From Mycobacterium sp. 1164985.4 (GTDB taxonomy: Bacteria > Actinomycetota > Actinomycetes > Mycobacteriales > Mycobacteriaceae), in the NCBI RefSeq assembly GCF_001668575.1, contig NZ_LZMD01000046.1, positions 186,001-250,000 of the forward strand: a stretch of DNA of 64,000 nucleotides, in the 5' to 3' direction. Below, in pieces: positions 48,809-53,436 of the stretch. How positions within the stretch are numbered: the first letter of the stretch is position 1; each line of letters opens with the position of its first letter. Under the pieces are notes generated by a model. It was not told the DNA's origin and ran no database searches. It worked only from the letters and a program-made list of their open reading frames with translations. The translations under genes were made by a program, and so were the position numbers.

Positions 48809-48993
48809 TACACAGGAGAGGAGGTGGTCCGAGATTTTGAGTGACTTATGGACTTGTGAGGTGGCTGCGAGCTAGCAGCGCCGGGGATGAGCTGACGGCT
48901 CTTCGCGTACTGCGCGCGCTGGCGAATTCCCCGCAGCCACCCGGCCCCCGAGCCCCTCGGTTTTGTCCGCCAGGAACACACGGCTCGGGGGCC
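48809..48993 (+). ncRNA. Structured leader or small RNA of about 185 nt
   Basis: The 331 bases between pabC and the next gene are non-coding and highly folded. GGTGGCTGCG (48860-48869) pairs perfectly with CGCAGCCACC (48932-48941). Inside are CGGGGA with TCCCCG and the hairpin GAGC-TGACG-GCTC. A second stem GGCCCCCGAGCC (48943-48954) with GGCTCGGGGGCC (48982-48993) has 12 perfect pairs and a 27-base loop. A strong Shine-Dalgarno AGGAGG (48819-48824) opens it. This could be a riboswitch-like leader, an attenuator with the short peptide at 48837, or an independent sRNA. I do not recognise a named RNA family. Confidence 0.55.
48837..48875 (+). CDS. Possible 12-residue leader peptide
   Basis: TTG-initiated frame MSDLWTCEVAAS, 12 bases after AGGAGG, ending inside the first stem of the structured RNA. 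It contains Trp-Thr-Cys. Two other short frames overlap (GTG at 48824, six codons; ATG at 48848, three codons). No independent proof of translation. Confidence 0.3.
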   Translation: MSDLWTCEVAAS

Positions 48994-49081
48994 GTTCCAT
49001 GTCCGGTGGTCGATATCAAATGGCGGAATCGGTAGCGAACCGTTGCACGCCCGGACTGGCGCGTCACTGGTGCGCCGGGCG

Positions 49082-51125: not shown

Positions 51126-51428
51126 TCAGGCGACCTTGACGTCGACCTCGTGGATACCGGCACCGGACGGCGCGACGACGGCGTCGCCGTTGCCGACCTT
51201 CGACAGCGCGCGCAGCGTCCACGTGCCCGGCGCCGCGAAGAACCGGAAGTCGCCGGTGGCCGACGCGACCACCTCGGCGGTGAATTCGTCGGAGCTGTCC
51301 AGCAGGCGCACGAACGCGCCGCCGACGGCCTGGCCCGATCCGTCAAGGACGCGGCCGGTGATCACCGTCTCCTTCTCGAGGTCGACGCTGGCGGGCAACG
51401 TCAGGCCTTGTTTCGGTGCAGAGCACAT
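51126..51428 (-). CDS. sseC: DUF1416 SseC-type protein
   Basis: 100 residues, equal to M. tuberculosis SseC2. CSAPKQGLTLPASVDLEKETVITGRVLD at the start; a beta-sandwich (transthyretin/CNA-B-like) fold. Always paired with the thiosulfate sulfurtransferase in actinobacteria. Starts one base after its stop. Probable accessory in sulfur transfer. Confidence 0.92.
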   Translation of the reverse strand: MCSAPKQGLTLPASVDLEKETVITGRVLDGSGQAVGGAFVRLLDSSDEFTAEVVASATGDFRFFAAPGTWTLRALSKVGNGDAVVAPSGAGIHEVDVKVA

Positions 51429-51429
51429 A

Positions 51430-52263
51430 TCAACTTCCCAACTCGATCGGGGCACCCACGAGGGAGCCGTATTCCGTCCAACTGCCGTCATAGTTCTTGA
51501 CGTTCTTGTGTCCGAGCAGTTCCTGCAGCACGAACCAGGTGTGCGACGAGCGTTCTCCGATGCGGCAGTACGCGATGGTCTCCTTCTCGCCGTCGAGACC
51601 GGCCTCGGCGTACAGCTTCGCCAGATCCTCGTCCGACTTGAAGGTCCCGTCGTCGTTGGCCGCCTTGCTCCACGGAACGTTGATGGCGCCGGGGATGTGC
51701 CCGGGCCGCTGGCTCTGCTCCTGGGGGAGGTGGGCCGGCGCGAGGATCTTTCCGGAGAACTCGTCGGGGGAGCGCACGTCGACGAGGTTCTTGTTGTTGA
51801 TCGCCGCGATCACCTCGTCGCGGAAGGCGCGGATGCTGTTGTCGGGCGCCTTGGCCGTGTAGCTGGTCGCGGGTCGCTTGACCTCGTCGGTCGACAGCGG
51901 GCGCCCGTCGAGCTCCCACTTCTTGCGGCCGCCGTCGAGCAGCTTCACGTCCTGATGCCCGTACAGCTTGAAGTACCAGTAGGCGTATGCGGCGAACCAG
52001 TTGTTGTTGCCGCCGTAGAGCACCACAGTGTCGTCGTTGCTGATGCCACGTTCGCTCAGCAGTTTCGAAAACTGTTGCTGGTCAACGAAATCACGACGGA
52101 CCGGATCCTGCAGGTCAGTCTTCCAGTCGATCTTCACGGCGCCCTCGATGTGGCCGCCGTCGTAGGCGCTGGTGTCCTCGTCAACCTCGACGAACACGAT
52201 GTTCGGCGCGTTGAGATTGCTCTCGGCCCAGTCGGCCGTGACCAGGACGTCGGAGCGTGCCAT
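51430..52263 (-). CDS. cysA: Thiosulfate sulfurtransferase (rhodanese), two-domain
   Basis: 277 residues, equal to M. tuberculosis CysA2. The catalytic Cys233 is in AYCRIGERS; the first, inactive rhodanese domain carries GHIEGAVKIDW. Transfers sulfane sulfur from thiosulfate to thiophilic acceptors. The name cysA here follows mycobacterial usage and is not the sulfate-transport ATPase. Confidence 0.94.
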   Translation of the reverse strand: MARSDVLVTADWAESNLNAPNIVFVEVDEDTSAYDGGHIEGAVKIDWKTDLQDPVRRDFVDQQQFSKLLSERGISNDDTVVLYGGNNNWFAAYAYWYFKLYGHQDVKLLDGGRKKWELDGRPLSTDEVKRPATSYTAKAPDNSIRAFRDEVIAAINNKNLVDVRSPDEFSGKILAPAHLPQEQSQRPGHIPGAINVPWSKAANDDGTFKSDEDLAKLYAEAGLDGEKETIAYCRIGERSSHTWFVLQELLGHKNVKNYDGSWTEYGSLVGAPIELGS

Positions 52264-52299: not shown

Positions 52300-52791
52300 T
52301 TATGCGGGTGAGGATGCGCGCGCGCCCTTGCGGAAGCGCGCGACGAGCGGATAGAGCTGGCAGCCCAGGCAGATGCCGAAGGCCGCGTTCAGGAAGGCCG
52401 CCACCAGCGCGAACGCGGTGGCGATCAGTCCAACGAGAGACAGGCCGGCCGCGAAGCCGACCACACCGAGCACCGCGAACACGAGGCCGACGAGCTGGGC
52501 GAACTGCAGGGGCGCCACCGGTTCCTTCTCGGTGACTGGCCCCAGGCGTGGGGCGATGAGGCGCGCGAAGATCAGGCCGTAGGGATGGGAGCGCGGACCG
52601 CGCCAGGCTCCGACGGCGAAGACCATGGCCTGCGCGCCCAGCACGACCGCCGCGGCGACCGGGCTCACCGGCCACACCAGCAGCGTCGCCACCAGGACGG
52701 CGGTTGTCAGCCAGGCGGCGAATCGTGGGCCGCGCACATCCACCTGGTCGGCCGTCTTGTTCTGGGTTCTCGACATATTTGTCGTTGACAT
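52300..52791 (-). CDS. DUF4395 membrane protein
   Basis: 163 residues, about four membrane helices and a characteristic CLGCQLYPL near the end whose cysteines could shuttle thiols. SD AGGAG (52803-52799) is seven bases before the ATG at 52791. First main gene after the poly-Cys leader. DUF4395 often accompanies thioredoxin and rhodanese genes. Confidence 0.85.
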   Translation of the reverse strand: MSTTNMSRTQNKTADQVDVRGPRFAAWLTTAVLVATLLVWPVSPVAAAVVLGAQAMVFAVGAWRGPRSHPYGLIFARLIAPRLGPVTEKEPVAPLQFAQLVGLVFAVLGVVGFAAGLSLVGLIATAFALVAAFLNAAFGICLGCQLYPLVARFRKGARASSPA

Positions 52792-52796
52792 TCATG

Positions 52797-52918
52797 TGCT
52801 CCTGTTGCGGTCATCGGGTCGGGCTGGGCTGAGAAAGGAAAGACCACAGGGGGCCGTTCCCGAGTGCGGCGCGAAGAAAAGGCGCGGCTACTCAGCAGCT
52901 ACAACAACAACAGCAGCA
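52797..52918 (-). promoter_or_regulatory. Cysteine attenuator: poly-Cys tract complementary to the DUF4395 Shine-Dalgarno region
   Basis: On the mRNA, TGCTGCTGTTG (52918-52908) inside the six Cys codons is complementary at 10 of 11 positions to CAACAGGAGCA (52807-52797), which contains the AGGAG of DUF4395. Pairing would hide the ribosome site. A ribosome stalled on Cys codons would cover the tract and free the site. Confidence 0.7.
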
Positions 52919-52984
52919 ACCCGCGACGCGGCACAGATCGACTGCGCGGCGCTTGGTGAGCATCGGCTCGAGGCGGGCGGACAC
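52892..52984 (-). CDS. Poly-cysteine leader peptide (attenuator ORF)
   Basis: 30-residue frame from GTG 52984: MSARLEPMLTKRR at the start and GCCCCCCSC at the end, six consecutive Cys codons then Ser-Cys-stop. The GTG follows a -10 TAAGCT by seven bases, so the mRNA is leaderless and translation begins at its 5' end. ATG 52963 is an internal alternative. Short leaderless ORFs with cysteine runs before sulfur genes are known from mycobacteria and act as cysteine-sensing attenuators. Confidence 0.85.
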   Translation of the reverse strand: MSARLEPMLTKRRAVDLCRVAGCCCCCCSC

Positions 52985-52991
52985 GCCGGAC

Positions 52992-52997
52992 AGCTTA
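52992..52997 (-). promoter_or_regulatory. -10 element of the poly-Cys/DUF4395/cysA/sseC transcript
   Basis: TAAGCT seven bases before the GTG, with GGCTTG 17 bases further upstream as a weak -35. It gives an internal promoter after the thioredoxin gene. Confidence 0.5.
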
Positions 52998-53013
52998 CCA
53001 ATCGACACGGTGA

Positions 53014-53436
53014 TCAAGCCAACAGCGGTTCCAGCGCCGAGCGCAGGTCAGCGGCCTTGGGAACGCCGTGGGTCCGGTAGCGGGGCCGACCGTCGCGGTC
53101 GAACACGATGGTCGTGGGAAGCGACAGCACCGAAAGCCGCCGCGCGGCTTGCGGGTTGGCGTCCATGTCGATCTCGACGTGCGCCACCGCGGGCAATTCC
53201 GCGCAGACCTCGTCGACAACCCTGCGCACCGCGCCGCAGGGGCCACACCACTCGGCGGAGAAGTGCACGACGGTCGGTCCGGTCGACGACAAGCCGAGAT
53301 CGCTGGTGTCGACATTGGCCGCGTCCTCACTCGCCTTGAGCAGGCCTGATCGGAGCGCGAGCAGCCGACCGATCACGTACGCCACGCCCAGCGCGGCGAC
53401 GAGCACAGTAATCACCAACACCCATGAAGAGCTCAT
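53014..53436 (-). CDS. thiX: Membrane-anchored thioredoxin-like protein
   Basis: 140 residues (Rv0816c-like). N-terminal membrane helix (WVLVITVLVAALGVAYVIGRLLAL), then a thioredoxin domain with WCGPC at Cys64/Cys67 and the cis-Pro in SLPTTIV. Probably reduces disulfides or persulfides at the membrane. Its ATG overlaps the lmeA stop (ATGA), so it belongs to the lmeA transcript as well. Confidence 0.92.
   Translation of the reverse strand: MSSSWVLVITVLVAALGVAYVIGRLLALRSGLLKASEDAANVDTSDLGLSSTGPTVVHFSAEWCGPCGAVRRVVDEVCAELPAVAHVEIDMDANPQAARRLSVLSLPTTIVFDRDGRPRYRTHGVPKAADLRSALEPLLA

Follow-up and report, generated by a model that had tools for sequence, protein, structure and literature searches.

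A poly-cysteine leader ahead of DUF4395-cysA-sseC in Mycobacterium: a predicted cysteine-sensing attenuator whose own codons may fold

The DNA analysed here, referred to as the window, is a stretch of 64,000 nucleotides from Mycobacterium sp. 1164985.4 (contig NZ_LZMD01000046.1, positions 186,001 to 250,000), and on its minus strand a short upstream open reading frame (uORF) of the leaderless type, ending in a run of cysteine codons, precedes genes for a DUF4395 protein, a cysA-type sulfurtransferase and SseC. We consider this leader, with a probability of about 0.8, to be a cysteine-sensing translational attenuator of DUF4395-cysA-sseC. When cysteine is ample, the Cys codons would pair with the Shine-Dalgarno (SD) region of the next gene and hide it; when cysteine is scarce, a ribosome stalled on these codons would keep the SD region free, and expression of the operon would go up. 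What the sequence itself shows is the frame with its promoter element, the complementarity, and the conservation of these features; the hidden state, in which the Cys codons form helix P4 with CAACAGGAGCA, and an additional layer of three helices (P1-P3) are predicted from folding and comparison. We infer that ribosomes stall when cysteine is low, that the SD is then released and that operon expression rises. By position and design the leader is related to a cysteine attenuator already reported, and the codon-SD pairing is well supported by comparison.

Pairing between the cysteine codons and the Shine-Dalgarno region

A first-pass annotation of the window had described a 30-codon frame that starts with GTG seven bases after TAAGCT and ends Gly-Cys6-Ser-Cys-stop before DUF4395-cysA-sseC, and the frame is indeed present in this form (start at 52984; translation in full, VSARLEPMLTKRRAVDLCRVAGCCCCCCSC). 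The complementarity of 10 in 11 positions that it had noted between the Cys tract and the SD was likewise recovered: the RNA of the Cys run (TGCTGCTGTTG, 52918-52908) and the SD region (CAACAGGAGCA, 52807-52797) form 10 Watson-Crick pairs with one internal G/G mismatch. Folding of the minus-strand leader, which had been proposed as a check, places this tract-SD helix (P4) in the minimum-energy structure of RNA 52984-52770 (-79.8 kcal/mol), the energy of which has a z-score of -1.69 and is equalled by 9 of 200 shuffles. In this structure P1 ends at nucleotide 66 and P4 starts flush with it at nucleotide 67. The SD core pairs with the tract with a probability of 0.78, compared with 0.23 when the spacer is shuffled, and in the free leader the first four bases of the tract face the ribosome binding site (RBS) with a probability of 0.92. 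The sequence CAACAGGAG occurs once in the window, with 0.36 copies expected and at least one copy in 34 of 100 shuffles, and its mere presence therefore says little.

The comparison within the genus is based on 224 DUF4395 loci from overlapping named and unnamed sets, 200 with the uORF and 24 without it. The former correspond to 167 distinct leaders, of which 166 were used, together with 23 of the 24 uORF-less loci (22 of the 23 being distinct); L227 (contig ends), L099 (chosen start before the uORF stop) and L329 (no start found) were left out. An element of the form TANNNT lies 6-7 nt upstream of the frame in 166 of the 167 distinct leaders, a count that reflects in part a locus filter preferring such starts. 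Of the 166 uORF leaders, 116 carry the hexamer CAACAG no more than 45 nt from the DUF4395 start; none of the 23 uORF-less loci does, and it occurs at one of 188 other SD-bearing starts that were picked mechanically in the collected loci. Averaged over the 166 leaders, pairing of the SD core with the tract is 0.465, compared with 0.161 for shuffled spacers and 0.206 when only the 10 nt before the SD are shuffled; for the initial four bases of the tract, the mean probability of facing the RBS is 0.36. The tract/RBS duplex is also stronger than that with a shuffled RBS (-19.8 versus -14.1 kcal/mol; p<=0.05 in 53 of 94 leaders, these 94 uORFs from the first 111 loci being used as well for the Cys-codon and residue counts given below). 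On the side of the tract, 164 of 166 leaders use TGT for the third cysteine (codon 25), the share of TGT among the Cys codons in long frames of the window being 21%. Codon choice was rejected as proof of the pairing: the duplex becomes significantly weaker in 17 of 94 leaders when the Cys codons are redrawn and in 2 of 94 when they are permuted. Because these changes are mostly harmless, the case for the pairing rests on the RBS side and on codon 25.

Outside the genus, leaders were located with a covariance model, R1, of the codon 3-22 region described below, which yielded 60 loci from 59 of the 103 genomes with a match, spread over all 19 other matching genera. All 60 loci have the uORF, starting with GTG (58) or ATG (2) and with a -10 element 6-8 nt upstream, and in 58 of them three or more of the last eight residues are Cys, the two exceptions (genus g18) having one or two. 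The uORF stands before DUF4395-cysA in 54 cases, directly before cysA in five, and before DUF4395 without cysA in the stretch in one. Its tract mostly reads CCCxC(C/R), with Pro, Ser, Thr, Leu, Phe or Arg codons amid the cysteines, and the RBS is often GCAGGAGCA. Pairing of the SD to the last uORF codons is 0.444, versus 0.200 after shuffling, and is higher than in the shuffled controls in 41 of 59 loci and in 17 of 18 genera. When tracts and RBSs are swapped between 19 genera, in a set where 12 leaders represent the window's genus, the own-genus duplexes are weakly favoured (-14.1 versus -13.5 kcal/mol, p 0.02). The CAACAG counts, the shuffled spacers and the 17 of 18 other genera support the view that the complementarity exceeds chance and is conserved. 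With the pairing seen as selection across genera, a switch from one laboratory species becomes predictable for much of the family.

The spacer shows further features in some relatives. In L063, L069, L100, L207, L223 and L228 the tract complement is CAACAA and lies after, not before, the SD (AGGAGCACAACAA). A recurring spacer element, CTCGGAGCAGC (for instance in L025, L055, L095 and L108), could pair with the Ser-Cys-stop codons AGCTGCTGAG; the window lacks its AGCAGC half. A spacer hairpin, AGCUGCUGAG/CUCGGAGCAGC, is conserved in relatives, and its AGCAGC half is absent in the window.

A predicted RNA fold within the codons of the leader

Ahead of the Cys tract, codons 3-22 are predicted to form a three-helix RNA domain, a layer that was absent from the first-pass annotation. 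In the free window leader P1, P2 and P3 form with probabilities of 0.98, 0.98 and 0.999, the means over the 166 leaders being 0.77, 0.92 and 0.93. Among 64 representative leaders in the genus alignments, from which the odd or decayed uORFs L056, L190, L240, L243 and L246 were excluded, the entropy of third codon bases is 0.27 at the 14 paired sites and 1.17 at the 7 unpaired sites (p 6e-4). Codon 8 illustrates this, in that 12 NNG codons for ten residues are used there, with a final G in 165 of 166 leaders; codon 21 has a final G in 163 of 166. Native codons 1-22 out-fold their synonymous recodings on average only (z -1.0; p<=0.05 in 33 of 166 leaders). Model R1 matches in 384 of 396 genomes of the genus (E<=0.1) and, in the family, in 118 of 201 genomes and 20 of 31 genera (E<=0.01); in the window's own genome it finds this locus alone. 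RNAalifold, run without RIBOSUM scoring on 114 full leaders, gave a poor consensus.

Comparison with the 19 other genera suggests that the RNA of the frame has been selected to fold as well. Outside the genus the helices, chiefly P1, covary: eight pairs are changed on both sides versus 4.9 in shuffles, and 45 covarying cells are found versus 19.7, levels reached in none of 500 shuffles, while slid registers give three to four such pairs; it tells against the fold that the alignment used (A3) had been fitted to the model and that the shuffling takes no account of relatedness. A test that needs no model-fitted alignment links the second base of codon 4 with the third base of codon 21 (G/C 24, G/T 3, A/C 2 and A/T 15 loci, with other bases in 16 of 60; p 4e-7), with p rising to 0.053 when each genus counts once, a further point to its disadvantage. 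Third-base entropy in the 60 loci is 0.53 at paired and 1.14 at unpaired sites (p 0.02).

As to the function of this fold, we infer a role in insulating the SD. The SD pairs with codons 1-22 at 0.031 in native leaders and at 0.095 in synonymous recodings, being higher in the native leader in only 16 of 166 cases, which suggests that the SD is insulated. It is likely that P1-P3 would block pairing of the SD with other parts of the leader, leaving the Cys codons as its main partner within the uORF; another likely role would be to restore the closed state once each ribosome has left. We considered whether P1-P3 stabilise P4 and set this aside, the effect being small (0.465 versus 0.446). Combining these elements, we tentatively propose, at somewhat less than even odds, a double-coded leader in which a covarying three-helix domain (codons 3-22, in 20 genera of the family) caps the codon-SD switch helix, the ribosome reads and unfolds its regulator in a single pass, and the switch controls entry into any frame that follows. 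If true, such folding of the leader's codons could partly account for a peptide conserved far above the needs of codon-run attenuation, and would make the question of peptide versus RNA testable.

Control by the leader and alternative explanations

The effect of a stalled ribosome was modelled by blocking all bases as far as a point 15 nt from where the stalled codon begins. The mean gain in SD accessibility is 0.088, versus 0.028 in shuffled spacers (111 of 166 leaders). The predicted opening fits the switch in direction and is modest in size.

Several observations weigh against the proposed switch or its capping fold. Under the mask the median SD accessibility rises from 0.21 to 0.34-0.36 and in the window leader from 0.20 to only 0.34-0.41, meaning that the SD stays mostly paired, and a ribosome at the stop codon already gives a median of 0.34 (0.26 in the window leader). 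In the free state SD accessibility hardly differs between native and shuffled spacers (0.272 versus 0.289). CAACAG is absent from 50 of the 166 uORF leaders, redrawn or permuted Cys codons mostly pair about equally well, and P1 and a flush start of P4 both exceed 0.5 in only 54 of 166 leaders. Within the genus, neither the paired columns of P4 nor those of P1-P3 covary beyond shuffles, and the third bases of the paired codons 11, 12 and 22 vary. Outside the genus one pair of P3 is disrupted in 49 of the 56 rows aligned, and pairing within P1 amounts to 79%. In leaders that have come to stand directly before cysA, the cysA SD is unpaired with the tract in 17 of 17 cases (0.01 or less).

These relocated leaders bear on what is controlled. 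In 103 of the 104 long-flank loci that have the uORF it is followed by cysA, and in 95 the order Trx-(uORF)-DUF4395-cysA-sseC is kept; none of the six long-flank loci lacking the uORF has cysA downstream. Of 22 genomes picked for a DUF4395 locus without the uORF, or for having no DUF4395 found, 17 have the uORF directly before cysA (15 of these 17 with a -10 element), four have a DUF4395 copy in the cysA locus, and L266 has no uORF in the stretch searched. A shift of CAACAG to the RBS of cysA was expected in the 17 and is not seen within 45 nt in any of them. An AGGAG start between the uORF and cysA persists in ten (L252, L253, L258, L260, L264, L265, L267-L269 and L273), eight of them with CAACAG; the frames are mostly short, and at least one, that of L269 with its DUF4395-like N-terminus (VDARGPRFAA), is a recognisable remnant of the gene. 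Within the double-coded reading, the RBS would outlive the DUF4395 gene because the switch controls entry into any following frame. Such loci are natural experiments on what the switch really controls.

The same loci give room to a rather unlikely but still appreciable alternative, a polarity switch, in which the uORF would gate ribosome entry into the next frame, whatever it encodes, and cysA would follow by translational coupling or by escape from Rho-dependent termination. It fits the linkage of the uORF to cysA rather than to DUF4395, the uORFs directly before cysA and the persisting starts, as well as the absence of a terminator-like site from 52600-53200 and the suggestion of Rho for mycobacterial cys leaders that appears in the available part of a 2005 study (PMC1262725). 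On the other hand, pairing with the tract reaches 0.48 or higher for only three of the ten stub SDs (in folds ending 30 nt after the stub start), the stub starts may be recent relics, and the stub frame of L258 extends past the cysA start. Both coupling and escape from termination are compatible with the relocated leaders as routes to cysA. Attenuation of the classical transcriptional kind, which would need an intrinsic terminator in the spacer, is very improbable, given that no terminator-like site was found in the interval and that the SD pairing beats the shuffled controls in 17 of 18 other genera.

An arrest by the nascent peptide, in which E-x-x-L-T-(K/R)-R-R-(A/T)-V-D-L-C-R would slow the ribosome or sense cysteine or redox status and the RNA signal would be secondary, appears improbable, albeit less so than transcription attenuation. 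The motif is found again in the 60 loci of 19 other genera, and two of its residues fit selection on the amino acid: V15, conserved in 94 of 94 uORFs of the genus and 60 of 60 outside it and encoded by four codons, and D16, conserved in 90 of 94 and 60 of 60 and encoded mainly by two. However, V15 and D16 sit in the loop of P3, where synonymous choice is free, and could represent a loop motif; the peptide varies at residues 5, 7, 8 and 20 within the genus and at residue 4 in the other genera, with most of the paired third bases fixed; and codon 4, a site of residue change, varies together with a synonymous position of codon 21. Least probable of all is chance complementarity, that is, that any TGY run fits an RCA-rich RBS sequence. 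This would agree with the similar pairing of permuted Cys codons and with partners slid by three columns in P4, which still pair in 67-75% of cells, but it does not account for the distribution of CAACAG (116/166 versus 0/23 and 1/188) or for the weaker pairing of shuffled spacers (0.465 versus 0.161). The attenuator remains our preferred reading. The idea of the first-pass annotation, that a pause on the tract opens the SD, holds as far as the pairing goes and agrees with the cysteine-dependent attenuation attributed to M. smegmatis in the available text of later papers; it is too simple in view of the modest opening, the unpaired cysA SD in 17 of 17 relocated leaders, and the duplex being weakened by Cys-codon permutation in 2 of 94 cases.

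Related leaders and layout of the locus

Canestrari and colleagues are said to have reported in 2020 that ribosomes stalled in a polycysteine tract block structures that sequester the RBS. The sections available to us of the other relevant papers place the window's leader in this context. Shell et al. (2015) describe a uORF ahead of cysA2/Msmeg_5788 in which Cys codons are clustered and on which ribosomes were seen by ribosome profiling in M. smegmatis, and guessed that cysteine or redox status works via this uORF (PMC4633059). A review of 2022 credits Canestrari et al. with attenuation by contiguous Cys codons in M. smegmatis (PMC9031893), and a paper of 2026 names the effect translation attenuation (PMC13236596). 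Earlier, Seliverstov et al. (2005) had noted that leader peptides containing runs of Cys precede cys operons in mycobacteria, had found no conserved terminator hairpins, and had proposed a stem in leuA between a run of leucine codons and the SD (PMC1262725). The proposed control of a DUF4395/rhodanese unit by codon-SD pairing, which had been presented as new, is supported in its core idea and already published in kind: the uORF before cysA2/Msmeg_5788 was described in 2015 (PMC4633059), and codon-run/SD pairing was put forward for leuA in 2005 (PMC1262725).

As far as the consulted portions of these accounts go, the window's uORF shares with that of cysA2/Msmeg_5788 the kind of position, the leaderless type, the C-terminal Cys cluster and the location ahead of cysA2, a comparison made by gene order and published description, both of which fit orthology of the two uORFs. 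The same portions hold no mention of the codon 3-22 fold, of the spread beyond mycobacteria or of the DUF4395 stubs, some of which the 2020 paper of Canestrari et al. may contain. Judging from the accessible part of the 2005 study, the LEU element of actinobacterial leuA is similar in that a run of leader codons pairs directly with the following gene's SD, at the foot of a conserved RNA structure, and differs in its leucine codons, its pseudoknot and the authors' doubt about leader-peptide control there (PMC1262725).

The window's genome contains another leaderless-type poly-Cys uORF, L122 (contig C57, ~74556; VLSSQASMRRACCCCRTPRRA), which starts with GTG 6 nt after TAAGTT and has four Cys codons. 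It differs in standing before a ROK-family protein (PF00480) and in having its Cys run in the loop of an 8-bp hairpin (GGCGTGCG/CGCACGCC, by eye), not facing the SD, and it may be of the Rv0485/Msmeg_0932 type of Fig 7B of Shell et al. At L002, the second match to the Cys pattern in the genome, no leaderless poly-Cys frame is visible.

Features of the leader and its neighbourhood in the window (coordinates of the window)
Feature	Position	Strand	Remarks
-10 element TAAGCT	52992..52997	-	7 nt before GTG 52984; sequence; presumed transcription start
uORF, VSARLEPMLTKRRAVDLCRVAG-C6-SC	52892..52984	-	30 codons + TGA (52894-52892); read from sequence
Predicted three-helix RNA domain, codons 3-22	52919..52978	-	folding, third-base entropy, covariation outside genus, R1 matches
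Helix P1	52978-52973 with 52924-52919	-	predicted fold
Helix P2	52969-52966 with 52961-52958	-	predicted fold
Helix P3	52952-52949 + 52947-52942 with 52936-52931 + 52929-52926	-	predicted fold
Six Cys codons	52901..52918	-	codons 1-4 of run (52918-52908): predicted anti-SD strand of P4
SD region CAACAGGAGCA	52797..52807	-	core AGGAG 52803-52799; complementary to Cys codons
DUF4395 protein, first gene after uORF	52300..52791	-	Pfam PF14340, E 1e-41
cysA-type sulfurtransferase, two rhodanese stretches	51430..52263	-	Pfam PF00581
sseC, DUF1416	51126..51428	-	Pfam PF07210, E 8e-43
Thioredoxin-like gene, upstream, ending before uORF promoter	53014..53436	-	Pfam PF00085; synteny

The uORF stop is separated by 100 nt from the DUF4395 gene, which starts at ATG 52791, 7 nt after AGGAG. 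The overlapping ATG 52795 was discarded as its start, since it begins a different frame, and ATG 52791 has good SD spacing. The names cysA and sseC are taken from the first-pass annotation and the literature, and the cysA-type protein matches the NCBIfam mercaptopyruvate sulfurtransferase model under that model's cut-off. A consensus scan for intrinsic terminators (hairpin and U-run) found none in 52600-53200, and Rfam 15 gave no family match at E<=1 for 52700-53060. Elsewhere in the window, positions 48810-49000 of the plus strand match the actinobacterial small RNA Ms_IGR-5 (RF02471, 159 bits).
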